DNA of 64,000 nt from Methyloterricola oryzae (GTDB lineage Bacteria > Pseudomonadota > Gammaproteobacteria > Methylococcales > Methylococcaceae), in contig NZ_JYNS01000008.1 in NCBI RefSeq assembly GCF_000934725.1, positions 90,833-154,832 of the forward strand, given 5' to 3'. Below, piece by piece: positions 752 through 16,861 of this stretch. Under the pieces are notes generated by a model that was given only the letters and a program-made list of their open reading frames with translations, made no database searches and was not told the DNA's origin. The translations under genes were made by a program, and so were the position numbers. Numbering within the stretch: the first letter of the stretch is position 1; every line of letters starts with the position of its first letter.

Positions 752-2596
752 TCACCCCATGACCTTTACCCGCAGCACTTCATTCTTCCGTGCGTCGATG
801 ACATGAACTGCGCACGCCATGCAGGGATTGAAGCTGTGGATGGTCCGCAACAGTTCCAGTGGCTGGTCCGCGACAGCCAGCTTGTGCTTGCCATCTTGCA
901 AGGCGGCCTCATACGCACTCGGATTGTTCGCCGGATCGCGCGGCGCGGCGTTCCAGGTGGTCGGAACTACCGTCTGATACGACTCGATCTTTCCATCCTT
1001 GATCTTGACCCAGTGTCCGAGCGCGCCTCGCGGAGCTTCGGTAAAGCCGAATCCTTTGACCTCTGCCGGCCAAGTAAAAGGCTGAAATAATTCCGCGTTA
1101 TGGGTCGCGAGGTCACCACCCTGAATGTTCGCCATGAGTTCCTCGAACCAGACCTTGGTCATATCGCCAATTATCTTGGTATCGAGTGCTTCCGCCAGCA
1201 GCCTTCCCATGGTCGAAAACATGCCGCTGAGGGGTTGCTTGATCTGTCCGAGGCTATCGTTAACGAGGGCTTGTGTCGCCGGATCGCCCTTCGCATAAAG
1301 CACCATCACTCGCGCAAGGGGTCCGACTTCCATGGCATTGCCTTTCCAACGAGGCGTCTTGAGCCACGAATACTCAGGTCCGCGCGCCGGGTCGAATAAC
1401 AGTTCGCCGCCCTCGCATACCGGGACATGCGGCGCGTACGCACGAGTCGGCCCGGTGTACGCGGGAACGGTTTCGCCATCGAAGGGATGCAGTCCTGCCG
1501 ACTTACCGGCAAGCGTATAGTTGAACCAAGATTTCGCAACGAATTCTTGGATTTCAGAAGGGTTCGAAAGATCGATGGGATAGACCGCATCCGCCAATCG
1601 AAAACGCGACAGAGGCAGCCGCCTGCCTGTGCTGTCTTTCGGCCAAAGTATGGCGCCGCTGGGTATCGCAAGTTTTGGCGCCAGCGCGCCCCAGGACGGA
1701 TTATCGTCTTGCGGGTAGTCGCCGAAGCTAAGAAAGTTCCCCAGACCCTCTCCCAGGGTAAACCACTCGGGATAGAACCGCGCCATAGCCAGCATGTCAG
1801 GCAAATGAACCTTGTCGACAAAATCCGTCATTTCCTTGAGAGTCTGCCGCACGACCTCAAAACCATTGGGATCGGAAGACGTGTTCCCATTTAGCAAAAG
1901 ACCCGTCTCATCTGTGCTGATCGCACAAGGCACACCACCGACTAGGAAATTGGGGTGGGGATTGCGGCCGCCGAAAATAGCATGGATCTTTACCATCCGG
2001 CGCTGCCAGTCCAGGGCTTCCAGGTAATGCGTGAACAACATCAGGTTGAGTTCGGGCGGAAGCTTGTAACCCGGATGTCCCCAATAAGCGTTCCCAAAAA
2101 TACCCAACTGCCCGGAAGATACGAAAGTGGACAGCTTGTCCTTGACGGCACGAAAATAGTCGGGGGAGTTTTTATCCCAGCCGGATAGGCAACGTTGCAA
2201 ATCCGCTGTTTTCTGTGGGTCTGCCTTGAGTGCCGAAGTTACGTCCATCCAATCCGGCGATGTCAGTTGGTAGAAATGAACCACTTGGTCTTGCACCATC
2301 TGGACGCCGCTCAATATGTTTCGAATGAGCCTTGCGTTTTTTGGGATGCGATAGTGCAATGCATGCTCGACGGATCGAATTGAGGCCATGGCGTGCACGA
2401 CGGTGCATACACCACAGATCCGCTGAGTGATTGCCCAGGCGTCGCGGGGGTCTCGGCCTTTTAGAATTTCCTCGATGCCACGGAACATCGTGCCGCTGCT
2501 GTAAGCACCGGTCACAGTGCCATCTGATGCGACATCAGTTTCAATATGCAGGTGCCCTTCAATTCGGGTCACCGGGTCCACGATTACCTTACTCAT
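752..2596 (-). CDS. hupL: [NiFe] hydrogenase large subunit
   Basis: This is the catalytic subunit that splits H2 at the Ni-Fe site, 614 aa and normal for group 1 uptake enzymes. The N-terminal Ni ligand motif RICGVC has C61 and C64. The C-terminal motif NPCMACAVH has C592 and C595 and is followed by a 16-residue tail starting VIDARK, which the maturation protease should remove after His598. The protease gene is 6 kb away at 8798-9310. It has no signal peptide, as expected: this subunit is exported by hitch-hiking on the Tat signal of the small subunit encoded just upstream (65-base gap). ATG start with an AAGGAGC-type ribosome site. Confidence 0.97.
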   Translation of the reverse strand: MSKVIVDPVTRIEGHLHIETDVASDGTVTGAYSSGTMFRGIEEILKGRDPRDAWAITQRICGVCTVVHAMASIRSVEHALHYRIPKNARLIRNILSGVQMVQDQVVHFYQLTSPDWMDVTSALKADPQKTADLQRCLSGWDKNSPDYFRAVKDKLSTFVSSGQLGIFGNAYWGHPGYKLPPELNLMLFTHYLEALDWQRRMVKIHAIFGGRNPHPNFLVGGVPCAISTDETGLLLNGNTSSDPNGFEVVRQTLKEMTDFVDKVHLPDMLAMARFYPEWFTLGEGLGNFLSFGDYPQDDNPSWGALAPKLAIPSGAILWPKDSTGRRLPLSRFRLADAVYPIDLSNPSEIQEFVAKSWFNYTLAGKSAGLHPFDGETVPAYTGPTRAYAPHVPVCEGGELLFDPARGPEYSWLKTPRWKGNAMEVGPLARVMVLYAKGDPATQALVNDSLGQIKQPLSGMFSTMGRLLAEALDTKIIGDMTKVWFEELMANIQGGDLATHNAELFQPFTWPAEVKGFGFTEAPRGALGHWVKIKDGKIESYQTVVPTTWNAAPRDPANNPSAYEAALQDGKHKLAVADQPLELLRTIHSFNPCMACAVHVIDARKNEVLRVKVMG

Positions 2597-2661
2597 GACT
2601 CGTGCTCCTTGATTCGTTTCAGACCGGGCGCTTCTCGCCGTCCTAGGGCGGACGGACCGGC

Positions 2662-3672
2662 TTAGTAGTAGAAGCTGCTACGGAACGTTTTTGTGATCGG
2701 ATCAAACCCCTTGTCCCAGAACTGGGGCTCGGAACAACCTATGCAGCCGTGTCCTACGAGCGTGGGCGAATACTTCGGTTCGTTCGTCGAGGGATCTCGA
2801 TTCCACCCCAGAGCCGTGCACGCATTGAACGTTTCCGGCCCCTTGCATCCGAGTCCGATCAGGCAATAGCCTTGGCGGGCCCCTTCGTCACCGTAGCTGT
2901 TGGCAAAGTTCCCCGCGATGAAATGCGAGAGCCGCGGGCAACTGTCATGTACCGTCTGCCCGTAAAAAACCACGGGCCGGAAATAGGCATCGAGTTGCGG
3001 AATCCCATGCACTAGGTAATAAGCAATGGTTCCCGTGATGACCGACGCCATGGGTGGGCAGCCAGCAATGTTGACAAACGGCGGCAGCCTTCCTTCGCCG
3101 CTCGGGCGCACCAAACCTTGTGCCACCAGATCAGCGTAACCCGCTGCGTGCGTCGGATTGGGATAAGCTGCCGGAATTCCGCCGTAAGCCGCGCAGGTTC
3201 CCAGGGCAACCACCAAGGCTGCGCCGCTAACCGCCTCGTTCAGAGTCGCCAAATTCGAATTTCCGGCTGCACAGGACCAAAATTCGGACTCTCCCGTCGG
3301 AATCGCGCCATCTACGATCAGAACATACTGACCATAGGCCGCTGCCATCGCATCCTTGCGCGCCTTTTCCGCGAACTCCCCCGCCGCCACTTGCAAAGTT
3401 TCGTGGTAATCGAGGGAAATAACGTCAAGCACCAATGTTTCAATCGACGGATCAAAAGAGCGAAGAATGGACTCGGAGCACCCAGTGCACTGCTGGAACG
3501 ACAGCCAGATCACGGTTGGCCTGCGAACGTTAGCCAAGGCGTCGGCGAATACCCGTGCTTGCTGACTGGACAACGCGAGCGCCGAAGCGGTGACTCCAGC
3601 GAATTTTAGAAACGAGCGCCGCGAGACACCGCGTTCCATCAGCGCTTCCAGTAATGTTTGTTGCGTGTTCAT
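2662..3672 (-). CDS. hupS: [NiFe] hydrogenase small subunit, Tat-exported
   Basis: This subunit carries three Fe-S clusters that pass electrons away from the Ni-Fe site. The Tat motif SRRSFLK is at residues 17-23, followed by a hydrophobic stretch, so the heterodimer should be periplasmic. Proximal cluster: CTGC (C62, C65), GTC and AGCPP. Distal cluster: His and Cys of VHDSC plus GYC and LGC. Medial cluster: NAC and GCIGC. The proximal site has the standard four Cys, without the two extra Cys of oxygen-tolerant group 1d enzymes. The protein ends FRSSFYY with no C-terminal membrane anchor, so it is probably soluble. I chose ATG 3672 (336 aa, GGGAG site upstream) over an upstream TTG at 3693. 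Confidence 0.96.
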   Translation of the reverse strand: MNTQQTLLEALMERGVSRRSFLKFAGVTASALALSSQQARVFADALANVRRPTVIWLSFQQCTGCSESILRSFDPSIETLVLDVISLDYHETLQVAAGEFAEKARKDAMAAAYGQYVLIVDGAIPTGESEFWSCAAGNSNLATLNEAVSGAALVVALGTCAAYGGIPAAYPNPTHAAGYADLVAQGLVRPSGEGRLPPFVNIAGCPPMASVITGTIAYYLVHGIPQLDAYFRPVVFYGQTVHDSCPRLSHFIAGNFANSYGDEGARQGYCLIGLGCKGPETFNACTALGWNRDPSTNEPKYSPTLVGHGCIGCSEPQFWDKGFDPITKTFRSSFYY

Positions 3673-3689
3673 GTTCCACTCCCAACAGG

Positions 3690-4151
3690 TCAAGGCATGG
3701 AGGTTGGTCGAACCGGCATAATCAGGTCCGCGCCGCGGGCGCGCAGAAGGGCTAGCCCGTGCGCCACGGACCCTCTATCTGAGCGCAGTAGATTAGGTAT
3801 TTCAGCAATCTCGAGAAATGTGCCGAGTACATGATTGTTGACATCGTAGTGGATGACCCACCACAGGCATGGAACGGAAGTCTCGGTGATTTCAGAATTG
3901 CCAGAGGTGGTAACAACTGCGGCAACTTCGCCGCGACCGAGAATGCTGTGTATGAGTGAAATATCTGGTGAGGAACGAACCAACATCCTCAAATCTAGGG
4001 TTGACTCTTCGCCTTTATCGATGAAGGACGACAGCTTCGCATCGATCTCATTGAGGAGAGCCAGGACCGCATCTCGATTAGGCAGGCCCGAAGGACCAAA
4101 GCCACACTTTACGCTTTCGACACGAACCGGAATATCTTCTAACCGACCCAT
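3690..4151 (-). CDS. HupH/HyaF-type hydrogenase accessory protein (single domain)
   Basis: The 153 aa cytoplasmic product resembles the conserved C-terminal domain of HupH/HyaF/HoxQ proteins, which assist maturation or export of the hydrogenase small subunit. The recognisable block is near residues 70-110, with GRGEVAAVV, then ETSVPCLWWV, and a FLEIAEIP segment. Typical HyaF/HupH proteins are about 280 aa with this unit in two copies; here only one is present, so the protein is short but not obviously broken. It is the first gene of the leftward hydrogenase unit, ends 17 bases before the small subunit, and has a strong GGGGAGGAG ribosome site. Family assignment is by pattern recognition and is moderately sure. 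Confidence 0.75.
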   Translation of the reverse strand: MGRLEDIPVRVESVKCGFGPSGLPNRDAVLALLNEIDAKLSSFIDKGEESTLDLRMLVRSSPDISLIHSILGRGEVAAVVTTSGNSEITETSVPCLWWVIHYDVNNHVLGTFLEIAEIPNLLRSDRGSVAHGLALLRARGADLIMPVRPTSMP

Positions 4152-5382: not shown

Positions 5383-5976
5383 ATGCGTAATCTAACCTTT
5401 GTCAGAAGCTGGGTTGCAACGCTAGCCATCGTTCTATCGGCCTTGCTCCCAACGTCCAGTTCATGGGCTCATGGCGGAGCTAGCGTCGACACCGACCAAT
5501 GTCGAATCTTCGTGGGCCCCCACTTGGTGCATTTTACCGCTTACCAGCCCCAATTGACCGGCACCACCGAATACTGCGACGCGATACCGGAACTCGGCCC
5601 CAGCACTCTCGTATTCGACTACGAGGGAAAAGCCCTGCGCGCCATGACGGTCGAGTTGGAAGTCACCAAGGAACCCGAAGGGACCCGCGTTTACTATCAG
5701 GAGCCCTCGACGCATCCCTCTGGAACCTTCAACATCAATCTCAACTTCACGGAACCCAGCAAGTACTTGGCGCACGTGACTTTGATCAACGAAGGTCAGA
5801 AAGTGGATGCCCACGTTCCGTTCAAGGTAGGCACCAACGTGAGTGGCGGTGGACTGTCCACCAACGCAATCATCATCCTCATGGTGATCCTGGTGGCGGG
5901 CGGCTACATCTTTTACCTGTCTAACGCCCAGTTCAAAGCCCTCATCGACGGCCTGCTCAAGAAAAAATCAGCCTGA
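5383..5976 (+). CDS. Secreted two-Cys protein with C-terminal membrane anchor (copper-island paralogue 1)
   Basis: The 197 aa product has a signal peptide (about 1-29, cut near WAH), a periplasmic beta-rich domain and a C-terminal transmembrane helix (about 159-180) followed by a short Lys-rich tail. C40 and C65 are probably a disulfide or metal pair. The block VHFTAYQP (49-56) and the end of the domain (YLAHVTL, then PFKVG) recur in the protein encoded at 11679-12371, so the two are paralogues. The strand pattern recalls small Ig-like CopC/FixH/YtkA-type domains, but I do not recognise a named family. It is the first gene of the rightward series; a strong hairpin separates it from the multicopper oxidase. 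A periplasmic role in copper or redox handling is inferred from the neighbours only. Confidence 0.85.
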   Translation: MRNLTFVRSWVATLAIVLSALLPTSSSWAHGGASVDTDQCRIFVGPHLVHFTAYQPQLTGTTEYCDAIPELGPSTLVFDYEGKALRAMTVELEVTKEPEGTRVYYQEPSTHPSGTFNINLNFTEPSKYLAHVTLINEGQKVDAHVPFKVGTNVSGGGLSTNAIIILMVILVAGGYIFYLSNAQFKALIDGLLKKKSA

Positions 5977-5990
5977 CGGCGGCTGTGGAG

Positions 5991-6023
5991 GCGGCCGCGG
6001 CAAGCCCGCGGCCGCTTTCTTGT
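5991..6023 (+). terminator. Strong hairpin with T-rich tail between 5976 and the multicopper oxidase
   Basis: A perfect 10-bp inverted repeat GCGGCCGCGG/CCGCGGCCGC (5991-6000 and 6006-6015) with a 5-base loop is followed by TTTCTTGT. It resembles an intrinsic terminator, or an attenuator or mRNA-stabilising hairpin that would let the first gene be made in excess over the downstream oxidase. Confidence 0.65.
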
Positions 6024-6061
6024 ATCCAGTCGGTGACCGCGACCCTATGGCAGAAGTTCAG

Positions 6062-7810
6062 ATGCTCAGAATACCCCTCAGATCGCTGTTAAGTTGCGCA
6101 TTATTGATGTCCTTCGCGGCTGGCGCCGTAACCACGCCCCCGCCTACTGAAAAAGTACCCCTGGCTGACGCCGAACCCTTCTGCAATAGCGGCGTGCCGC
6201 CGGAATGGCGCGACTCCCAGACGCTGGAAGGTGTCACGATTCAAGAGGAACGCGTCTGCAACCCCGACAATCCCGCAGACATCGCGGTGTTCGTGAAGGG
6301 GACCAACAACGTCTCCATGCAAACGCTGATGGACACGAATCTGGCCGCGGACGCAATCACCATGTCCAATGACATGGACGGCGACGGCGATCCTGACCAT
6401 ATCATCATCAAGCTGGAGATCATGGAGATCAACGGCCACTCGCCAGACTTCGCGGGCGTGGTGCCGACCTTTGACATCGCCCCCGGTATCAGACCGGGCT
6501 TCTGGGTGTTTGCGCCCAAAACGCGCGACATGTCCACCAAGAGTTTCGCCAGCGCAGAGGCCAACGCCTTGCTGCGCATGCCGTCCCCGACCATCCGCGT
6601 CGAGCAGGGTGACATCGTGTGGCTGGTGGTGGAAAACACGCACTATTTCCCGCATTCCATACACCTGCACGGCGTCGACCATCCCTTCCGCGACCACAGT
6701 GGCGAAGGTAACGATGGCGTAGGCCAGACCAGCCACATGGATATCATGCCCGGCGAGAGCAAGACCTACGTCATCAAACCCAGGCAGCCGGGCACGATGT
6801 ATTATCACTGCCATGTGCAGCCGCATACCCATATTCCCATGGGCCTCGCGGGAATGTTTGTAGTCGAGGAAAATAGGCCCAACAATTGGGTGCAGACTTT
6901 CAACGTGGGCAATGGCCAGGTGCGCTCGCCCTCCAAAGCCGTCCGTGAAAAATACGACCGCGAATACGACTTGCACTTCCAGTCGGTGGACAAAGAATTG
7001 CACCGCATGATTCAGGCCGCCAACGATCCGCGTCTGATCGCGCGGGCCATGAATCAGGAATACGACATCACCGACGCGACAGACGATTACTTCATTTTGA
7101 ACGGACGCGCGTTTCCCTACACCTTGCGCGAATCCATCATGGTTGTGGAGCCCAACCAGAAGATCAAGATGCGGGTGCTGAATGGTCATACGGAACTCCT
7201 GGCCTTACACACCCATGGCCACAAGGCAACGGAAACCCACTACGATGGCGTGGAGCATAACCCGGCCGCGAGGGTAACCCGTGATGTGTATTCCATTGCG
7301 CCGGCCCAACGCCTCGACCTGGAACTGAACACCACCAACGACGGGCTGCACAGCTTCGGATCCGGAATCTGGATGTTTCACGACCACGTCGAGAAGGCGT
7401 TCACAACCGACGGCGTCGGTGAAGGTGGAAGCATCAGCGTCATCGTCTACAAGGAATACCTGGACGAAAAAGGCACCCCGAAAACGCACGGCATGGACTT
7501 GACTCCTTATTTCACCAAGCAATTCTGGGAGCGCAAAGTCCCCATCTGGCAGAACTTCGCCGGCGACTGGGGCGCCCTGGGATTGCCGGCAACGGCCGCT
7601 GCGAGCAGCCAGACAGTTGCCCCGGCACCATCCCAAGCACAGGCGAATCAAAGTGCGCAGGCAGCCAGCTCGCCGAACGGTTCTGCCAGCTTTGGGAATC
7701 TGCTGACGGGAATTTTGCTTGGAGTCTTAGGCTATTTCTTCTACCTGAAGCGTAATTTCTTCATTCCGCTGGCCCATGATGCGGTCGCCCGGTTGAAGCG
7801 GATGAAATGA
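6062..7810 (+). CDS. Multicopper oxidase, two cupredoxin domains, membrane anchored
   Basis: Periplasmic copper oxidase, 582 aa from ATG 6062, which gives a clean signal peptide (about 1-22); ATG 6047 is an alternative and neither has a strong ribosome site. The N-terminal cupredoxin domain carries HSIHLHG (H198, H201, H203) and HCHVQPHTHIPM (H249, C250, H251, H255, M260), a complete type 1 copper site. The second domain carries LHTHGH (H383-H387) and HDH (H440-H442) without the Cys, so it can supply trinuclear ligands but no type 1 site. This is the layout of two-domain oxidases with the blue copper in domain 1. Residues 104-112 are Asp/Gly-rich and resemble a calcium loop. An Ala/Gln/Ser linker precedes a C-terminal transmembrane helix and a basic tail. 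The substrate is unknown; a Cu(I), metal or electron-carrier oxidase is possible. Confidence 0.9.
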   Translation: MLRIPLRSLLSCALLMSFAAGAVTTPPPTEKVPLADAEPFCNSGVPPEWRDSQTLEGVTIQEERVCNPDNPADIAVFVKGTNNVSMQTLMDTNLAADAITMSNDMDGDGDPDHIIIKLEIMEINGHSPDFAGVVPTFDIAPGIRPGFWVFAPKTRDMSTKSFASAEANALLRMPSPTIRVEQGDIVWLVVENTHYFPHSIHLHGVDHPFRDHSGEGNDGVGQTSHMDIMPGESKTYVIKPRQPGTMYYHCHVQPHTHIPMGLAGMFVVEENRPNNWVQTFNVGNGQVRSPSKAVREKYDREYDLHFQSVDKELHRMIQAANDPRLIARAMNQEYDITDATDDYFILNGRAFPYTLRESIMVVEPNQKIKMRVLNGHTELLALHTHGHKATETHYDGVEHNPAARVTRDVYSIAPAQRLDLELNTTNDGLHSFGSGIWMFHDHVEKAFTTDGVGEGGSISVIVYKEYLDEKGTPKTHGMDLTPYFTKQFWERKVPIWQNFAGDWGALGLPATAAASSQTVAPAPSQAQANQSAQAASSPNGSASFGNLLTGILLGVLGYFFYLKRNFFIPLAHDAVARLKRMK

Positions 7811-7823
7811 GGCTGTGACGAAG

Positions 7824-8732
7824 ATGAAAAGCTTGCTTATTGCATTGGCGTTGAGTCTTCCGGCATCCATGACGGGCGCCGCGGAGTCCAAGATTGTTGA
7901 CCACAACATGATGATGGATCACGGCGACGGTCACCTGATGGACATGGACGGTGGCATGGTCATGGGACAAAACAAGGACAAGCTGCCGGGCGGATGCGAC
8001 AAGATTTCCGAAGATGCGCACATCACCGTGCATGGTGGTCACAAGTATTCCCAAAAGTTTCCGGGTACCATGTTCGCCTTCGATACCCAGGAGTGGCGTT
8101 TCAAGCCCTGCACCCGGTTGACCATCACGTTCGTCAACGAAGACAACATCCGCCATCAATGGATGATGCATGGGCTCCCCAAGTACATGTACGACAAGGG
8201 CATGTTCCACTTGGAAGTGACCGGCCCCGGCAAAGTGACGGGCACCTTGATCCTTCCGAAGGAGGACAAGACCTACTTGGTCCATTGCGACATTGCCCAG
8301 CACATGGAAAAGGGCATGAAGGGAGAACTTATCGTGGGCAACGGCAGCGGCACGTTTCCGAGTATTCCAGGCCTGACCGACCCTGCCATACCTGATTACT
8401 ATGGCCCCGGCCCGGCACCAGCTACCGTCGCGGCGGGAGCGCTGTCCGTCAAGGGTTCCGATGCCTCATCGACCCCGGCGCCGTCCGTAACAGGGGAGTC
8501 GGCACAAGGTACAACACTGCTGTCCGGCTCGCTGGTTCTCGGCCTGGTGCTTGGCCTGTTCGGCACGCCCATGGCTATGCGCTACGCGGGCCAACGATTC
8601 AAGGGCAAGACCACGGCGGAAGCGGTGGCGGAAATCCTGAATATCGTGTCAGACCTCATAAGTCGCGTGATCAAACTGATTGCCTGGCTCTATGCCAAAG
8701 CCACGGGGCAAAAGCGACTGCCAAGCAAATAG
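7824..8732 (+). CDS. Membrane-anchored cupredoxin with Met/His-rich N-terminus
   Basis: The 302 aa product has a signal peptide (about 1-20) and a Met/His/Asp-rich stretch (residues 26-48, e.g. DHNMMMDHGDGH) typical of copper-binding tails. A cupredoxin domain (about 60-172) has a full type 1 set: H111, C155, H160 and M165 in the spacing C-x4-H-x4-M. C58 and C96 may form a disulfide. A Pro/Ala/Ser linker leads to a transmembrane helix (about 230-253) and a helical cytoplasmic tail. I chose ATG 7824 over GTG 7815 because the GAGG site is better spaced. It starts 13 bases after the oxidase stop, so the two are probably co-transcribed and may be redox partners. Confidence 0.88.
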   Translation: MKSLLIALALSLPASMTGAAESKIVDHNMMMDHGDGHLMDMDGGMVMGQNKDKLPGGCDKISEDAHITVHGGHKYSQKFPGTMFAFDTQEWRFKPCTRLTITFVNEDNIRHQWMMHGLPKYMYDKGMFHLEVTGPGKVTGTLILPKEDKTYLVHCDIAQHMEKGMKGELIVGNGSGTFPSIPGLTDPAIPDYYGPGPAPATVAAGALSVKGSDASSTPAPSVTGESAQGTTLLSGSLVLGLVLGLFGTPMAMRYAGQRFKGKTTAEAVAEILNIVSDLISRVIKLIAWLYAKATGQKRLPSK

Positions 8733-8742
8733 GCGGGACCGC

Positions 8743-8761
8743 GGGCGGCGCACTTCCGCCC
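8743..8761. other. Hairpin between cupredoxin and hydrogenase protease genes
   Basis: GGGCGG (8743-8748) pairs with CCGCCC (8756-8761) across a 7-base loop in the 65-base gap. No T-run follows, so it is more likely a processing or stability element than a terminator; transcription may continue into the protease gene. Confidence 0.4.
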
Positions 8762-8797
8762 GGGCACCGAGGCCGCTAACAGCCCAGGTTCTGTTCG

Positions 8798-9310
8798 GTG
8801 CACACGGAAACTGAAAAGACGGTATTACTCCTGGGCCTGGGCAACGTCTTGATGGGCGATGATGGACTCGGTATCCGTGTGCTCGAGAGAATTCTCCAAA
8901 ACTACGATCTCCCATCCAACCTGATCTGCTTGGATGGCGGGGTCATGGGCCTGCAGCTCTTGTCTCACATGGGCGGAATCACTCATTTGCTGGCAATCGA
9001 TGCGACACAGACCGGTGCCCCGCCCGGGACTGTGGTCAGCCTCGAAGGCGACGATGTACCACAGTGTCTGACCCAAAAATTGTCCATGCATCAGATCAAT
9101 TTTCAGGAGGTACTAGCCATTAGCCAGCTGCAGGGAATGCACCCACCCCACTTAATGATTTGCGGGATGGTACCGGAACGCGTTGAATTCGGCATGGAAC
9201 TCACGGACACGATACAGGACCGGCTGCACGACCTTGAATCTGCTGTAGTAAAGGCACTGTGTGATTGGGGCGTGACCCTCGTTTCAAGATCCAAAACCGC
9301 AGAGTCTTAA
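8798..9310 (+). CDS. hupD: [NiFe] hydrogenase maturation protease
   Basis: This is the endopeptidase that removes the C-terminal tail of the large subunit after nickel insertion. The 170 aa product has the family N-terminal signature GLGNVLMGDDGLGIRVLE (about residues 13-30) with the metal-binding acidic residues, the LDGG segment and a later conserved Asp and His. Length is normal. GTG start at 8798. It lies 65 bases downstream of the cupredoxin gene and on the opposite strand from the hydrogenase structural genes, so the copper-protein genes sit between the enzyme and its protease. The tail it should cleave is the 16 residues after His598 of the large subunit at 752-2596. Confidence 0.93.
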   Translation: MHTETEKTVLLLGLGNVLMGDDGLGIRVLERILQNYDLPSNLICLDGGVMGLQLLSHMGGITHLLAIDATQTGAPPGTVVSLEGDDVPQCLTQKLSMHQINFQEVLAISQLQGMHPPHLMICGMVPERVEFGMELTDTIQDRLHDLESAVVKALCDWGVTLVSRSKTAES

Positions 9311-9873
9311 AAAAAGCGCCGGCTGTCGAACGCTGGTGGCAACAAATTGAGAAGCGCACGAGTAGGCCATGAGGTTCGTGGAGGAGAGTCAACCTCGCCT
9401 GCCCGTGATACCCGACTGCCGGCGAAAACCGGATATGCCAGAGTTAACAAGCATAGAAGGTGCCATTGCCTGCTAGGCGAGGCCGGCATCTCTCCAGGCT
9501 GATACGCCGAAACCAACCATCAGTCCCCTGCTATCCTCGGAATGACGGGGCACGACACCCGCGACCGGATAAACTCAGACTCCACCTTCAATCACCGGGC
9601 CGACACTCCAGCCCATCCTTGCACTGTCCACCAGCACGCAGGCCAAGACCAGCCCCGCGTCATTTCCCCCAGCGCTTCCGTTAATTGCCATATTGAGAAT
9701 CCTACACCTCTCTTACCTTACTGTTTTCACAAGCGTTTTTTCTGGCACGCAGATTGATTAAATAACACCAGGCGGCCTGCGTCACTGCATGCACTCCGCC
9801 GAGACGGATTCCATGTAAAGAAGGCCGTCCATAAGAAAAAAGCAATAAGGCACAGAATCAGAGGTTATTACGG
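9311..9873. other. Intergenic region, 560 bases
   Basis: This gap lies between the protease gene and the second copper-related series. Short frames on both strands lack ribosome sites and recognisable content. The right half is AT-rich and carries the sigma-54-like element at 9743-9758. I see nothing else. Confidence 0.5.
9743..9758 (+). promoter_or_regulatory. Candidate sigma-54 promoter upstream of the BNR/copC series
   Basis: TGGCACGCAGATTGAT has a perfect -24 element (TGGCACG) and a near -12 element (TTGA for TTGC) at the correct spacing. The predicted start lies about 105 bases before the TTG start at 9874. A single change in the -12 GC makes this uncertain. Confidence 0.4.
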
Positions 9874-11157
9874 TTGCTCCAACCATCCCACCGTCCACGT
9901 ATTACCGGCGGGTCGACGCGCTCACTCGATGGCGCGCGGCTGCTCTCCCGCGTCCTGCAACTGCTGATATTGGTCGTACCCGCCATTGCCACGGGCGCAT
10001 CCCGAGTCGCCCAAGATCAAAACGGTGGATTGCCGAATGTTCCTGCCATCGAGGGACTTGTGGATGTGCACAGCCTGGACATCTACAACGAGGCAAATAA
10101 ACTCCACGCCTTGGTGGCAGGCCGTTTCACTGGTCACGCCAACCCGATGCTGGCCTACCTGGCTTCCAGTGACGGAGGACGGAGTTGGAGTAAGCCAGCA
10201 TTCGTTACGGCAGAATCTGATCCTCCCATCGTTTCCCGACGTGGCAACGACGCCCAGGTGGCCGCGAGTGGCCCGCATCTGGTAGTGGCCTGGCAGCAGC
10301 GCGGGCAATTCCCCACCGGCGGCCCCCTGCGCCTCGCACGCTCGGGCGACAACGGCCACACCTGGACTCAATCCCTCCTGCCTGACATCGACGATCCCAC
10401 CAACAATCAGTCCTATCCGGATCTGGTGGCCGACGCAAGCGGGACATTTCACCTGGTCTGGCTGGACGACCGCGAGGAGAATGGCAACGCCCAAGGCTTG
10501 CGTTATCTCAATTCCACCGATGGGGGACGTCGCTGGTCGCAGCAGACCACCATCGACGGCGTGGTCTGCACCTGCTGCTGGAATCGCATCGGCATAATGC
10601 CCGATCGCTCAGTGGCAGTCCTTTATCGCGACGATGAGCCGCACGACATGCGCCTCGCCGTCCGTAACAAGGCAGGCTCCTGGAAAGACCTGGGTAGCGT
10701 CGGCGATTTCAAATGGCATTTCGCCGGCTGCCCGCACTGCGGCGGCGGTTTCGCCAGCGCCATCCGCAAGAACGCCGCCCAACTCCACAGCGTGGTCTGG
10801 ACCGGGATCGAGTCTGCCCCGGGCTTGTATTACCTGAAGTCGTCGGACCTGGGCGCATCCTGGTTACCCCCTTTCCGGCTGGGTGACAGCAGCAGCCGCG
10901 AAGCCGACATCGCCGCCCTGTCCGCGAGACACATCGCTGTGGTTTACAGCATCACGACAGGCGGGAAAGGCCTGATTCATGTGCGCCAGTCCAAGGATGG
11001 CGGCAAAACGTGGTCTCAGGCAAAGGCCCTGACCAAGGGCCCTGAGTCGGCTGATCACCCCCGTATCGTGGCAACGCCCTTCGGATTCCGCGCATTCTGG
11101 ACTGAGCGCGCACCGGGCGGCGGCCGCACACTCACCATGCACTCTTTGGACTCATGA
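9874..11157 (+). CDS. Secreted BNR/Asp-box beta-propeller protein
   Basis: The 427 aa product belongs to the sialidase-like superfamily. At least five Asp-box repeats are visible: SSDGGRSWS, SGDNGHTWT, STDGGRRWS, SSDLGASW and SKDGGKTWS. A hydrophobic segment at about 27-43 after an Arg-rich start is a signal peptide or anchor. Two Cys clusters, CTCCW (C232, C234, C235) and CPHCGGG (C286, C289), are not part of the fold and could bind metal. The start is TTG at 9874 with AGAGG nine bases upstream; no ATG fits. It heads a series with copC four bases downstream, so a metal-related periplasmic role is more likely than glycan cleavage. The exact function is unknown. Confidence 0.8.
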   Translation: MLQPSHRPRITGGSTRSLDGARLLSRVLQLLILVVPAIATGASRVAQDQNGGLPNVPAIEGLVDVHSLDIYNEANKLHALVAGRFTGHANPMLAYLASSDGGRSWSKPAFVTAESDPPIVSRRGNDAQVAASGPHLVVAWQQRGQFPTGGPLRLARSGDNGHTWTQSLLPDIDDPTNNQSYPDLVADASGTFHLVWLDDREENGNAQGLRYLNSTDGGRRWSQQTTIDGVVCTCCWNRIGIMPDRSVAVLYRDDEPHDMRLAVRNKAGSWKDLGSVGDFKWHFAGCPHCGGGFASAIRKNAAQLHSVVWTGIESAPGLYYLKSSDLGASWLPPFRLGDSSSREADIAALSARHIAVVYSITTGGKGLIHVRQSKDGGKTWSQAKALTKGPESADHPRIVATPFGFRAFWTERAPGGGRTLTMHSLDS

Positions 11158-11161
11158 TTTC

Positions 11162-11668
11162 ATGACACAGCATTTGTCGTTTGGCCCGCTATGCCGATTC
11201 ACCCTCCTCGGCCTCACATTGAGTTCCCCTGGGGCAGGCGCTTTTCCGGTCACACCGACCCAAACCACGGAAGAGTGGCTCACCACGGGCACGGCGCAAG
11301 CGGCGCAGAACCGCGAGACCAACCCTTTTGCCCTGACAGCCATCGCACTCCCGCATCTGCTCGCCCATGCGATCCTGGTCAAGGCGAATCCCGAGAAAGA
11401 GTCCGTGATCAGCGATGCGCCTGAAGAAGTCCTACTGATCTTCAACGATGGCGTCGGTGAAGAATACCTGGCCCTGGCCGTGGTGGACGAGGCGGGCAAG
11501 CGCGTCGACAAGCACGACGCCAAACTGGATTTCACCGATCGCTCGCATTTGCGCGCAACGGTGGAAAAACTCCCTCCGGGACGGTACATGGTGCGCTACC
11601 GGGTACTGTCGGCGGACGGGCATGTAGTCAGTGGAAAGTACTACTTCCAAGTACAAGGCAAACAATGA
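11162..11668 (+). CDS. copC: CopC-type periplasmic copper-binding protein
   Basis: The 168 aa product carries the CopC domain: HAILVKANPEKE (H69 at the position of the mature N-terminal His that binds Cu(II)) and a C-terminal DGHVVSGKYYF with the second conserved His. Between the apparent signal peptide (about 1-27) and H69 there are some 40 extra residues; the usual family member begins right at this His, so either the leader is unusual or the His is not N-terminal here. It begins 4 bases after the BNR gene and is followed by the second two-Cys paralogue. It probably carries periplasmic copper; no CopD partner is present in the window. Confidence 0.88.
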   Translation: MTQHLSFGPLCRFTLLGLTLSSPGAGAFPVTPTQTTEEWLTTGTAQAAQNRETNPFALTAIALPHLLAHAILVKANPEKESVISDAPEEVLLIFNDGVGEEYLALAVVDEAGKRVDKHDAKLDFTDRSHLRATVEKLPPGRYMVRYRVLSADGHVVSGKYYFQVQGKQ

Positions 11669-11678
11669 GGGAATTACC

Positions 11679-12371
11679 ATGAGCAAATTCGACCGCGCAC
11701 CAGCCCGTCTGGCCTGTTTTCTGTCCGTCACCCTGCTGGCGGGCCTCCTGGGAGGTCCCGCACTGGGGGCCAACGCGCCGCGAGATCCCTTGAACGGGCG
11801 CCAGTCGTACTCTGGATCAAACATGAACTGTTTGATTGCAAACGATTTTTACGTCATACATTTCACTGCCCTGCAGCCCGGCACGTTCAAGAACGAGGCC
11901 ACCCCCTTCGAGAAGTACTGCCAGGAAGTGCCTCAGATCGGAAAGACCTATTTGACCATGGACCTGCTGGACCGCGACGTGCGTTCCACGCCCATCTCAC
12001 TGCGGGTGGTTGAAGAGGAGTTCGGAGTGGACGGCACTCCTACCCGCGAGATCGCCACCCTGGCCGAAGTTCCGGCCAAGATCTACAAGAACGGCACCGC
12101 GGACACTCAAGTCGACATCACCAAACCGGGACATTACGCGCTCATCGCTAGCATCGGCGAAGACGCCATCACCGAGGACGACCGGCTACGGATTCCTTTC
12201 AGCGTGGGTCTGCCAAGCCCGAGCAAATCCACCGACTGGATGGGCAAGTTGACGGCCTTCATCACCATCGCCTTCTTCGGCACCATGGCCCTCATCGGCT
12301 TTCGCACCTGGCGCGCCTATCGCCGCCCCAAGGCGGCTGAGGCTGATGCGCTGCGCTATCCACCGGCTTGA
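11679..12371 (+). CDS. Secreted two-Cys protein with C-terminal membrane anchor (copper-island paralogue 2)
   Basis: The 230 aa product has a signal peptide (about 1-32), a periplasmic domain with C51 and C81, a transmembrane helix (about 190-209) and a basic cytoplasmic tail. VIHFTALQP (59-67), a YCQEVPQIG segment and a closing HYALIASI/PFSVG block match the protein encoded at 5383-5976 in order and spacing. ATG 11679 has a TGAGGG site; an upstream GTG at 11631 is unlikely. It starts 10 bases after copC. The function is not known. The repeated pairing of this family with copper proteins suggests a copper chaperone or an assembly factor. Confidence 0.85.
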   Translation: MSKFDRAPARLACFLSVTLLAGLLGGPALGANAPRDPLNGRQSYSGSNMNCLIANDFYVIHFTALQPGTFKNEATPFEKYCQEVPQIGKTYLTMDLLDRDVRSTPISLRVVEEEFGVDGTPTREIATLAEVPAKIYKNGTADTQVDITKPGHYALIASIGEDAITEDDRLRIPFSVGLPSPSKSTDWMGKLTAFITIAFFGTMALIGFRTWRAYRRPKAAEADALRYPPA

Positions 12372-12408
12372 AGAGAGCCTGACGCCAATAGCCCGCGTGG
12401 CGGCCCAG

Positions 12409-14120
12409 ATGCATAAACTCCTGCAAGGATGGCTTCTGGCCGCCGTTGCGGCAATGGCGCCGCCGCTTGCCGCCGACTGGGCCGGGTTCTCCAACTACAC
12501 GGTGCTGGCGGAACTGGCGGTTCAACCCGGCGTCTTCACGCTGACTCTCCGCATCCCACTCAAAATGCTCCCCGAACTGGCACAACGCCTGGGTAAGGAG
12601 CGGGATGTTACCCCGGAAGCGCTTTCACGCAGGCTCATGCGGATAAGGGCGGACCACGGCGCGCCCTTGCAGGAGTTGCAACCGCGAGTCACCAAAGAGG
12701 CCGTGCCCGACGCGAACGGTACGCCGGTGGAATTCGTTGAAATAACACGTGTGCTCACGCCAGCCGGCGCGGTCTCCGGATTCACGCTGGCGCCTGCCGC
12801 AGGCCTGGAGAACCGAATCGGCCTGGTGGTCCTCGACCGTGGCGTCCCCTTGGCAGACCTGGCGCCGCTCTCAGGAAACCTGCGCGCCCATCTGGACACG
12901 GAAGATCCCTGGAAATCCGGATTCGACGATCCGGGCTTGGTTCGCCGGCATGCCCAACCACGTTCTTTCCTGTATGTGGAGCCGCTGGAAGTGCGGCACG
13001 AACTATTGCTGCGCCTCACGGACCTGAAGCGCTGGCTTCCCGCCGATCTCATGAAGCCCAAAACCTTATCAGAGGACGACCAATCCCGACTATCCGAAGC
13101 CATCGCCAATCTGGTCAAGAGGCAGTTGCGACTGGAGGTGGATGGCCAGGAACGGCTGGCCGAGTCGGAACAGGTGCAGTTCGTCGGCTTCACCCGCACG
13201 GGCGTTCAACCCCTGCCGCCAGGACCGGTCGACACCACGGCGGCCCTGGTGGGCGTCGTGCTCGCCTACTTTACGGAACAACCGGCCACTACTCTCTCTC
13301 TGACCTGGGACCTGTTCCCGCCAGACGCAGCCCCCTGGCCCGTCAGCGTTCTCCAAGGCACCGAGAGCTTTGATGCCTATGTAACGCCTGCACAGCCACG
13401 GATGGACTGGGCGCACGAGGATGGATTCGAGCCTTTGGCCAGCGAAGCGGCTGCTCCTGCCGACTCAGAGCCCTTCACGCTGGCAAGCGCAGCACAGCCC
13501 GCTCCGGATTCCGAGCGGCGACTGTCCACTTTGCTGGCACTGTTGCTGCCAGTTGGTGTCTGGTTTATCTGGCTGCTGAACCCCAGACGGCGTTTCGCCG
13601 GCTTGACCCTTGCCGGCGCATTAGCGCTTGGCACGGCCCTGAGCTGCCACCCAGGCATCCGGCAGCAGCAGGGAGGCGACGGCTCCGGCTTGCTGGACGA
13701 AACCCGGTTACGCGCCGTGCTAGCACCCATGCTGCACAATGCCTACCGGGGATTTCAACTACGGGATGAAGAAGCCGTCTACGACCGGCTTGCCCGCAGC
13801 CTTGACGGTCAACTCCTGGAAGAAACCTATCTTCAGCAGCGCCGCAGCCTGCTCAGGCATTCGCAGGGCATCGGCGGCCTGGGCAAAGTGGATCGGGTCG
13901 AAATCGAGCATCTGCAACTGATGCCCACGGAGACACCGGCCACCGCAGAACTGGAGGCGGAATGGGTCGCCCATGGCAGCGTTTCGCATTGGGGGCATTC
14001 CCATCCACGCCACAATCGCTACCGCGCCCGCCTTAAGCTGCAGGTCGCCCCTGATCAGCGCGTGCGCATCACCGCCATGGATTTTCTCGACGGACAGGAC
14101 TTGGGCTCCGGCCCCGCCTC

Positions 14121-14124
<4 letters not shown>
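12409..14124 (+). CDS. Large periplasmic/membrane protein of unknown function
   Basis: The 571 aa product, from ATG 12409, has a signal peptide (about 1-22, ending ALAADW-like), a long soluble region and a hydrophobic block near residues 365-410 interrupted by NPRRRF, suggesting two transmembrane helices. A final helical domain with many Arg and Glu follows. I recognise no enzyme motif. An in-frame ATG at 12346 would overlap the previous gene by 26 bases and spoil the signal peptide. Its stop overlaps the ATP-binding protein gene (ATGA), so it is probably coupled to the ABC system and may be its periplasmic or adaptor component. It has a His-containing SHWGHSHPRHNR stretch near the C-terminus. 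Confidence 0.75.
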
Positions 14125-14774
<650 letters not shown>

Positions 14775-14777
14775 CAA

Positions 14778-15935
14778 ATGCGCCACGATTTCTACCTGGC
14801 ATGGCGCTATTTGCGCCACCACACGGGGCGTACCTGGATTTTGGTCATTTGCCTCAGTCTGATCGGCAGTTTACCCATGGCGCTGCACTCACTCATGGAT
14901 GCCGGTGAGCGGCAGATGCTGGCGCGCGCCGAGTCAACGCCTTTACTTATCGGCGCGCGAGGCAGCGCCGTTGACCTGACCCTGGCCGCCTTGTACTTCA
15001 ACACGGTGCCGCCACCGGCCACACGCATGGCGGAAGTGGAGCGCATCGCCGACAGCGGCTGGGCAGACCCCTTGCCGATCTATGCCCGGTTCCGTATCCA
15101 GGGCCACCCCTTGGTAGGCGTTACCCTGGACTATCTTGAATTCCGTGGCCTCGAGCCCCAACAAGGCCGGACCTTCGCCCTGCTGGGCGAGTGTGTGATC
15201 GGCGCCGATGCTGCCGCCGCACTGCATCTCAAACCCGGCGACAACCTGCTCACCACCCCGGAGAACATGCTGGACCTGGCCGGCGTGTATCCCTTGAAGC
15301 TGCACGTCGCTGGCATCCTCGCCAGAAATCATTCGCCGGATGATGCGGCCGTGTTCATCGACCTGCAGACCGCCTGGATCATCGAGGGACTCGGACACGG
15401 CCACGAAGCCCAGGCCACCGCTGGCAGTCCGTCGAATGTGGTCGCCGACCCGCGTCTGGTGACCTACACAGAGATCACGCCGGAAAACGTCGAAAGTTTC
15501 CACTTCCATGGCGATCCCCTGACCTACCCCATCAGCGCCGTGATCGCCCTCCCCCACGATCGGCGCGCCGCCACCCTCTTACAGGGCCGCTACCTGTCAC
15601 CGGATGACCCTGCGCAAATCGTCCAGCCTCCGCAGATTGCGCAGGGCCTGCTGCAAAACGTGTTCAAGGTGGGAGATCTGCTGGACGCCGTCCTGCTCTG
15701 GGTGGGAAGCGCCGCTTTGCTGGCCGTGGGCCTGGTATTTACTTTGTCCTTGAGGCTGAGGGAGCGCGAACTGCACACCATTTTCCTGATGGGCTGCAGC
15801 CGCAGCACCGTGGCGCGTCTCGTAGCCGCGGAATGCATCCTGTTGGCCGGATTCGCCGGACTGATCTGCCTGGCCTTGGTCCAGCTCGTGCGCACCTATG
15901 CCGAACCCCTCGTTCAGCACCTTGTCATTTCCTGA
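14778..15935 (+). CDS. ABC transporter permease, FtsX/MacB type
   Basis: The 385 aa product has one N-terminal transmembrane helix (about 20-38), a large periplasmic domain (about 40-285) and three C-terminal helices, the classic FtsX/MacB layout. The segment RERELHTIFLMGCSR between helices is the usual cytoplasmic coupling loop. His residues are frequent in the periplasmic domain (FHFHGDP, LGHGHEA), which may relate to metal. It probably works with the ATPase just upstream and the ZnuA-like protein downstream. The direction of transport is not clear: MacB-type systems are mechanotransmitters or exporters, not typical importers. Confidence 0.88.
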   Translation: MRHDFYLAWRYLRHHTGRTWILVICLSLIGSLPMALHSLMDAGERQMLARAESTPLLIGARGSAVDLTLAALYFNTVPPPATRMAEVERIADSGWADPLPIYARFRIQGHPLVGVTLDYLEFRGLEPQQGRTFALLGECVIGADAAAALHLKPGDNLLTTPENMLDLAGVYPLKLHVAGILARNHSPDDAAVFIDLQTAWIIEGLGHGHEAQATAGSPSNVVADPRLVTYTEITPENVESFHFHGDPLTYPISAVIALPHDRRAATLLQGRYLSPDDPAQIVQPPQIAQGLLQNVFKVGDLLDAVLLWVGSAALLAVGLVFTLSLRLRERELHTIFLMGCSRSTVARLVAAECILLAGFAGLICLALVQLVRTYAEPLVQHLVIS

Positions 15936-15946
15936 AGGAGCCCCCC

Positions 15947-16861
15947 TTGTTCAAACATCCAACGTTCAAGCATTGTCTCTGGCTGATCTGCCTGGCGCTG
16001 ACGACGGCCGCTCATGCGGATCTCGACACCTCGAGCCGGCTCAGGATCATCGCATCCAACTACCCGCTGGCCTATTTCGCCGAACGCATCGCCGGGACTC
16101 GCGCGACCGTCTCCATGCCGGTTCCGGCCGGAGAAGACCCCGCCTTCTGGAAGCCTTCGCCGCGGGACATCGGGGACATGCAACGTGCCGACCTGATCCT
16201 GCTAAACGGCGCAGACTACGAAAAGTGGCTGGCGCGCGTGTCCTTGCCGAGACTTAAAACGGTAGACACGTCGGCTGCCTTTAAGCAGGACTTCATCGTC
16301 ATCGCCAATGCTGTCACCCACAGCCACGGCCCTGCTGGCACGCACTCCCACGCCGGCACCGCCTTCACCACCTGGCTGGACCTCACTCAAGCAGTCAAAC
16401 AGGCGGAGGCCATCGCGCAGGCCTTTGCGCGAAAGCGGCCAGAATTGAAAAGCCAGATTATGGGCAACTTCGCCAGCTTGCGGACCGACCTCGAGAAACT
16501 CGACTCCGAACTCAAGTCCCTCGCTTCCGCCAAACCGGGCATTGCACTGCTCGGTTCTCATCCGGTGTATCAGTATCTGGCGCGGCGCTATGGCCTGAAC
16601 CTGGAGAGCGTGCATTGGGAACCCGATGAAATGCCTCCAGCAGGCGAATGGCAGGCTTTGGAAAGCCTCAACCGGGAACGCCAGGCTCAATGGATGCTAT
16701 GGGAGGCGCAACCAAACGCGGATATTGCCAAGCGCCTGAAAGAGACCGGCGTGCAGAGCGTGGTGTTCGACCCCTGCGCCAACCGGCCTGAAGACGGTGA
16801 TTTCCTCAGTGTCATGCAGCAGAACAAGGCCAATCTGCAGCGCGCCCTGGGCGTGCGCTGA
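15947..16861 (+). CDS. ZnuA-like periplasmic metal-binding protein
   Basis: The 304 aa product resembles the metal-binding (A-1) cluster of solute-binding proteins: signal peptide (about 1-21), a N-terminal lobe with LNGADYEKWL, a His-rich loop (THSHGPAGTHSHAG), the GSHPVYQYLARRYGL element with the conserved His, and a C-terminal Asp-containing FDPCANRP. The usual DPHxWLD site reads AFTTWLD, so one canonical His is missing, possibly replaced by the His-rich loop. The start is TTG 15947, with GAAGGAG six bases upstream; a longer frame from 15833 would run 100 bases into the permease gene. The substrate may be Zn, Cu or Mn. ZnuB/ZnuC-type partners are absent; the linked ABC genes are of a different class. 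Confidence 0.85.
   Translation: MFKHPTFKHCLWLICLALTTAAHADLDTSSRLRIIASNYPLAYFAERIAGTRATVSMPVPAGEDPAFWKPSPRDIGDMQRADLILLNGADYEKWLARVSLPRLKTVDTSAAFKQDFIVIANAVTHSHGPAGTHSHAGTAFTTWLDLTQAVKQAEAIAQAFARKRPELKSQIMGNFASLRTDLEKLDSELKSLASAKPGIALLGSHPVYQYLARRYGLNLESVHWEPDEMPPAGEWQALESLNRERQAQWMLWEAQPNADIAKRLKETGVQSVVFDPCANRPEDGDFLSVMQQNKANLQRALGVR

Follow-up and report, generated by a model that had tools for sequence, protein, structure and literature searches.

PmoD/AmoD proteins form a known membrane-anchored copper-binding family of methane oxidisers, whose part in the oxidation of methane and ammonia has yet to be explained. According to Fisher et al. 2018 (PMC6189053), PmoD consists of a signal peptide, a cupredoxin domain with two invariant Cys and a C-terminal helix. 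The same account has PmoDs bind copper in vitro, one Cx9H member among them, and distinguishes motif classes: the CuA site is formed by Cx7MxHxnC PmoDs only, and Cx9HxnC members bind copper without CuA. It places Cx9HxnC PmoDs often near copC, and Cx8MxnC PmoDs often near multicopper oxidases (MCOs) and ATP-binding cassette (ABC) transporters. Here we describe two proteins, copy 1 (P0001) and copy 2 (P0002), encoded in a stretch of 64,000 nucleotides of Methyloterricola oryzae (contig NZ_JYNS01000008.1), referred to below as the window.

Several described systems resemble this pair. AmoD and AmoE of ammonia oxidisers are also paralogous members of the PmoD family with copC nearby (PMC6189053); unlike copies 1 and 2, they are encoded within amo operons. 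In Methylococcus capsulatus Bath, the pmoD homologue beside a multicopper oxidase, MCA2130, is reported as down-regulated without copper, and the one beside copC, MCA2170b, as up-regulated; the source is the Kam1 genome paper (PMC6688271), which cites a transcriptome paper (PMC4831470) for both responses. The latter describes copper-responding cluster CRC 3 (MCA2168-2179), with copC and a ZnuABC-like ABC transporter, as raised in copper limitation; PmoD is not mentioned by name in its main text. Two further proteins invite comparison. CtaK/YtkA is likewise a small membrane-tethered extracytoplasmic protein with a role in oxidase assembly: in B. subtilis, CtaK is described as needed for the oxidase at low copper, and a joint action of CtaK and Sco in assembling CuA is proposed (PMC9145763, PMC13344008). 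CopC is a periplasmic copper protein whose gene adjoins copy 2.

Family membership and gene sets of the two copies

Both proteins are members of the PmoD/AmoD family. Among all PDB sequences, phmmer returned a sole match for each, PmoD 6cpd (Met49242_1452 of Methylocystis sp. Rockwell), with E values of 3.6e-12 for copy 1 and 2.7e-10 for copy 2. AlphaFold models, with a mean predicted local distance difference test (pLDDT) score of 83.7 for copy 1 (37-row alignment) and 73.5 for copy 2 (13 rows), had 6cpd as their best solved structural match (Foldseek, 2.2e-11 and 1.5e-10). The copy 1 model matched 6cpd with a VIA Z of 17.1 and a root-mean-square deviation of 1.9 over 114 residues, the runner-up reaching Z 9.8. 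CrdA of Helicobacter (Z 8.9) and CopC (Z 7.7) stood far below it in the same list, and to judge by the model the likeness of copy 1 to CopC would be a distant one between beta-sandwiches at most.

Both copies share with Rockwell PmoD sequence similarity, the cupredoxin fold and the two strictly conserved Cys of the family, C40/C65 in copy 1 and C51/C81 in copy 2, spaced by 25 and 30 residues. Hydropathy also predicts for both the signal peptide and C-terminal membrane helix that the Rockwell protein has (PMC6189053): Kyte-Doolittle hydrophobic stretches cover residues 4-24 and 152-182 of copy 1, and 7-31 and 188-209 of copy 2. They differ in that the CuA ligand Met49 of 6cpd (Cx7MxH) is replaced by Leu in copy 1 and Val in copy 2, and in that, unlike Rockwell PmoD, their genes lie outside any pmo operon. 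Three AMO-A (pmoA) and three AMO-B matches in the host genome indicate a methanotroph or close kin. No PmoD matched in the regions around its three pmo loci (L118-L120), two of which end at contig ends.

A preliminary description of the window had put the two genes in one copper-related family on the basis of a signal stretch, a Cys pair, a HFTAxQP block, a closing P-F-x-V-G and a C-terminal helix. All of these are present at the positions given there, the blocks reading VHFTAYQP and VPFKVG in copy 1, and IHFTALQP and IPFSVG in copy 2. The two proteins align beyond the short blocks, with 25% identity over 146 columns (BLASTP E 3e-10, a single comparison), and a copper-related function, probably copper handling, stands. 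The same description recognised no named family, an impression that fits the silence of Pfam and NCBIfam, where neither protein found a family at E up to 1; the PmoD match, with its solved structure, leads us to reject it. At that threshold neither protein matched the Pfam models of CopC (PF04234) or YtkA/CtaK (PF13115), nor those of PCuAC and FixH, each of which presumably has one. Weak PF13115 matches (E up to 0.01) occur in 6 of 37 family members.

The two genes head or follow distinct gene sets. Copy 1 is the first gene ahead of an MCO and a cupredoxin (unit A). Copy 2 lies 10 bases after copC, which a BNR-repeat gene precedes, and is followed by a gene for a 592-residue protein, two ABC transporter genes and a ZnuA-like gene (unit B). 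In 21 of the 23 loci from the host's family, PmoD is followed by MCO and cupredoxin in the same orientation; the two exceptions are an additional copy in a genome (L074) and a locus whose contig ends about 0.9 kb past the gene (L089). The order BNR-CopC-PmoD recurs in all 21 unit-B loci. The 592-residue gene, the two ABC genes and ZnuA come within a few kb downstream in 15 of them; in one (L109) the ABC set and the 592-residue gene lie upstream on the same contig, and in five the stretch read lacks them.

In relatives, where stretches of up to 20 kb were read, unit B occurs in none of the 23 unit-A loci and unit A in none of the 21 unit-B loci. The two units adjoin in this genome alone among the loci read, and the earlier picture of paralogues bracketing the copper genes as a functional unit describes a local arrangement. 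The gene content of unit B matches that of CRC 3 (copC and a ZnuABC-like ABC transporter), and M. capsulatus Texas has two PmoD matches, of which L082 belongs to unit A and L100 to unit B; around the other copC of that genome (L196), the stretch read shows no ABC set of this kind. By neighbourhood, the window's pair would be the counterparts of the known M. capsulatus pair, MCA2130 and MCA2170b having the same two neighbourhoods (multicopper oxidase and copC). Unlike that pair, the two units of M. oryzae stand side by side and next to hydrogenase genes.

The paralogues are kept across relatives: copy 1 has a match in 37 of the 38 genomes of the host's family, host included (E <= 0.001). An order-wide search with a copy 1 profile matched 293 of 311 genomes at the same threshold, a count that may include other paralogues. 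Of the 27 loci with names that the copy 1 search found, most belong to Methylococcaceae, including M. capsulatus Texas, Methylocaldum sp. 14B and Methylotetracoccus oryzae. We built a tree of 97 rows, in which about every third Methylococcaceae copy-1 row was kept. Copy 2 forms one clade (27 rows, support 99/92), joined with the group of a third PmoD-like copy and three rows from pmo-bearing genomes. Copy 1 falls inside a 36-row clade across several families of the order (98/90), and a 99/90 branch parts the copy 2 side from copy 1, 6cpd and cox-linked forms. The tree program warned of meeting long branches, namely the cox-linked group with PMO_L185, the third-copy group with PMO_L193, and PMO_L181 and L184 with copy 2. 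Since the copies sit in separate deep clades, their duplication is old and predates the diversification of the family.

The third copy is more distant and is encoded elsewhere in the same genome (L008:8952-9698), with a lipobox-like LASC and no neighbour recognised as copper-related. Its group shows a 35-residue Cys spacing in 11 of 11 open reading frames (ORFs).

Motifs were counted on ORFs grouped by best-matching query: 121 of 124 were scored and the other three inspected separately. Cx9H is present in 55 of 66 copy-1-like ORFs, 24 of 28 copy-2-like ORFs and 14 of 16 in the group nearest cox-linked PmoD, and the 11 third-copy ORFs have no His at the motif. Both copies in the window are Cx9HxnC, so that the CuA-forming Cx7MxHxnC set is found in neither. 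Cx7MxH occurs in none of the 121 scored ORFs; it is present in two amo-linked ORFs outside the count (L185, L192), and the remaining unscored ORF (in L156) has no His at the motif position. These counts make the MCO-linked PmoD of Methylococcaceae a Cx9H form, not Cx8M. A further motif, [AGS]H[GR]G a little ahead of the first Cys, characterises 65 of 66 copy-1-like ORFs and 15 of 16 in the cox-like group, and is absent from all 28 copy-2-like and all 11 third-copy ORFs; of its two exceptions, L068 is apparently cut by the contig end and the G354 ORF reads PHGG. We infer that the pattern fits a mature N-terminal His, predicted to be exposed by signal peptide cleavage. A histidine brace at this His in the copy-1 branch would be a guess prompted by its conservation; such braces occur in CopC and PmoB.

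Both forms of this motif were met among 20 further copy-1 loci picked from other families of the order. A cupredoxin lies beside PmoD in 10 of the 20, four of these having the MCO too (L152, L154, L155, L156), and it follows in all 10 loci of the HGG type. Two additional loci have a cupredoxin (L226) or MCO and cupredoxin (L223), and in G320 and G559 the trio PmoD-MCO-cupredoxin comes after pmoA-pmoB. The HRG-type loci form, with one further row, a single clade (11 rows, 100/100). By eye, the next gene in five of six such loci (L159, L161, L162, L165, L171; not L168) encodes a similar protein of about 290 residues.

PmoD in cytochrome c oxidase operons

In an even sample of 369 Gammaproteobacteria genomes, PmoD was found in 13 and AMO-A in 11, all 11 among the 13. 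The remaining two, G354 and G476, have neither AMO-A nor AMO-B. The complete trio PmoD-MCO-cupredoxin comes after CtaB-CoxB-CoxA-COX3-COX3-CoxD in G354, all in one orientation, and the cytochrome c domain of its CoxB marks the oxidase as caa3 type. G354's order, represented by 19 genomes of one family, has PmoD in nine, each time immediately downstream of genes for cytochrome c oxidase. Of these nine loci (L194, L212-L219), eight show the full set, CtaB through CoxD; the ninth, L216, is cut by its contig end and shows the last three genes. What comes after PmoD varies: YtkA and a CCP_MauG dihaem protein in 7/9, MCO and cupredoxin in G354. G476 carries PmoD-YtkA-MauG with no cox genes within 20 kb. 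The ten PmoDs, nine cox-linked and that of G476, form one clade (100/99). Neither Sco nor Cox11 was seen among the listed ORFs of L194 and L215, some of which were scanned with Pfam.

Among the Methylococcales loci up to L202, cox genes beside PmoD were limited to loose cases with distant oxidase matches (L161, L169, L087/L126), which makes the cox link a feature of the G354 lineage. The literature search, with supplements lying outside it, turned up no account of a PmoD gene within a cytochrome oxidase operon, and as far as searched the link is new. The main text of Fisher et al. assigns all PmoDs to species with a pMMO (particulate methane monooxygenase) or AMO (ammonia monooxygenase) homologue and their Methods 98.5% of 860 (PMC6189053), so such exceptions may already be in their data. 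A PmoD encoded in a cox operon would loosen the accepted tie of the family to methane and ammonia oxidation. Standing beside YtkA, and without pMMO/AMO in one such genome tested (G354), it would make copper loading testable on an enzyme far easier to assay than pMMO.

Proposed copper loading and alternative roles

Some features of PmoD stay constant: the membrane tether, the small cupredoxin fold, the Cys pair, mostly a nearby His, and copper-protein neighbours. Its partner enzyme varies between pMMO/AMO and a caa3 oxidase, which copper loading explains better than a role in methane chemistry. Both enzymes have copper sites in a periplasmic cupredoxin domain (PmoB and CoxB). From this context we infer, with a little more conviction than doubt, that PmoD is a membrane-tethered periplasmic copper-loading protein. 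Copies 1 and 2 would be exported cupredoxins held at the inner membrane by the C-terminal helix and binding periplasmic copper through Cys and His (Cx9H) at a non-CuA site. Copy 1, the MCO and the Met/His-rich cupredoxin would work as a set tethered to the membrane, accepting copper in the periplasm, maintaining it in the proper redox state and passing it on to copper enzymes whose cupredoxin domain is periplasmic, here PmoB of pMMO; in the cox-linked lineage the recipient would be cytochrome c oxidase (CoxB, CuA). At a guess, the MCO may serve to oxidise Cu(I) or to hold the copper pool at the proper redox state. Together with CopC and the ZnuA-like ABC set, copy 2 would belong to a copper-starvation acquisition cluster, like MCA2170b; scavenging under starvation is suggested because of the M. 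capsulatus expression data and the CopC and ABC company.

A wider proposal can be put forward tentatively, as a possibility that falls somewhat short of even chances: PmoD may be a portable periplasmic copper-loading part and not a methane- or ammonia-oxidation protein as such. It would be attached to the membrane copper enzyme of the lineage (pMMO/AMO or caa3-type oxidase) together with MCO and cupredoxin, or with YtkA and a MauG-type protein. The copy-1 and cox-linked branch, with its conserved predicted N-terminal His, may have a histidine-brace type of Cu(II) site in addition to the Cys/His one.

Several points weigh against copper loading in one or other form. None of the reports we consulted describes a PmoD that transfers copper, and Fisher et al. 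do not decide between electron donation, loading and stabilisation (PMC6189053). HRG-type copy-1-like loci, 10 of the 20 from other families, have neither cupredoxin nor MCO beside PmoD. The cox link comes from one family of 19 genomes and a single clade. As PmoD is missing from 10 of these genomes, the oxidase is able to work without it, and in L212 PmoD follows the cox genes without YtkA, MauG, MCO or cupredoxin. In the copy 1 model, residues 26-36, around the N-terminal His, have pLDDT <50, and the mapping of the window onto M. capsulatus was by gene content and neighbours, not locus tags.

That PmoD and the cupredoxin instead act as an electron relay, serving pMMO in either direction or linking cytochrome c to the oxidase, while the MCO is an electron sink, seems unlikely to us. 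Electrons can be transferred at a CuA site, which a PmoD homodimer is able to form (PMC6189053); no neighbour of copy 1 is more constant than the cupredoxin, and most cox loci continue with a gene for a MauG-type dihaem protein; but both copies are Cx9H, the class whose member formed no CuA (PMC6189053), and the sole motif shown to form it is missing from every scored ORF, the two amo-linked ones lying outside the count. Slightly less likely still is a defensive role of unit A, similar to CueO/CopA, with the MCO oxidising Cu(I) in the periplasm while PmoD and cupredoxin buffer it. An MCO beside a Met/His-rich copper protein does resemble copper-resistance loci, and the MCO has a distant match to TIGR01480 copper_res_A (42.5 bits; cut-off 478.95). 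Copper sensitivity would also fit a published pmoD deletion that impaired growth only when copper was present (PMC6189053), but this defect arises where pMMO is in use and its authors tie it to pMMO, and attachment of the trio to pmo and cox operons also speaks against detoxification. That knockout, of another PmoD, caused no defect under copper starvation; the essential role once suggested for the paralogues is not shown.

The suggestion that the copies are a pair of subunits, forming one heteromeric complex and bracketing the copper genes, appears highly improbable. The genes do lie 5.7 kb apart here and PmoD can homodimerise (PMC6189053), but the units stand at different places in relatives, the two clades parted before the family diversified, and the M. 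capsulatus counterparts respond oppositely to copper (PMC6688271).

Features of the window

Genes and sequence features of the two units are collected in the table.

Table. Coordinates of the two PmoD-family copies and their neighbours in the window.
Feature	Position	Strand	Basis or remark
PmoD-family copy 1 (P0001, 197 residues)	5383..5976	+	motif Cx9HxnC; by neighbourhood, probable counterpart of M. capsulatus MCA2130
Copy 1 His30, predicted mature N-terminus after signal peptide (A|HGG)	5470..5472	+	invariant in 14/14 alignment rows
Copy 1 Cys40, first conserved Cys	5500..5502	+	
Copy 1 His50, the H of Cx9H	5530..5532	+	
Copy 1 Cys65, second conserved Cys	5575..5577	+	
Copy 1 C-terminal membrane helix	5836..5928	+	hydropathy; helix 160-180 in model
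Two-domain multicopper oxidase with C-terminal hydrophobic helix	6020..7810	+	Pfam Cu-oxidase_3/_2; hydropathy; true start probably downstream of TTG
Cupredoxin with Met/His-rich N-terminus and C-terminal hydrophobic helix	7815..8732	+	Pfam Cu-oxidase_2 1.1e-4, Copper-bind 0.0027; hydropathy
BNR-repeat protein, first gene of copC unit	9874..11157	+	Pfam BNR_2
CopC	11162..11668	+	Pfam CopC 1.1e-21
PmoD-family copy 2 (P0002, 230 residues)	11679..12371	+	motif Cx9HxnC; by neighbourhood, probable counterpart of M. capsulatus MCA2170b
Copy 2 Cys51 (11829), His61 (11859), Cys81 (11919)	11829..11921	+	
Copy 2 C-terminal hydrophobic stretch	12240..12305	+	hydropathy; helix 187-215 in model
592-residue protein	12346..14124	+	no Pfam match over cut-off
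ABC transporter ATPase	14121..14774	+	by sequence; conserved in loci; not scanned against Pfam
MacB/FtsX-type permease	14778..15935	+	Pfam MacB_PCD 1.7e-7
ZnuA-like metal-binding protein	15833..16861	+	Pfam ZnuA 2.1e-47; true start probably after 15935

The nearest solved relative of the MCO is 3g5w. In unit B, the 592-residue protein is conserved in the CopC-PmoD-ABC set and is a candidate part of copper uptake, and the BNR-repeat protein has CTCC and CPHC motifs that could bind metal.

Unit A is flanked by genes of a [NiFe] hydrogenase: large subunit, small subunit and a HupH-like protein at 752-4151 on the minus strand, and a HupD protease at 8798-9310 on the plus strand. A link between hydrogenase and unit A was considered and rejected, hydrogenase genes being found in 0/23 unit-A loci of relatives. 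Three relatives with the same hydrogenase (L200-L202) have no PmoD in the stretch read. Close relatives of this hydrogenase, with 72-74% identity in the large subunit, occur in 4 of the 37 other genomes of the family (G026-G029), and a second hydrogenase, 51% identical, is encoded elsewhere in the host genome.

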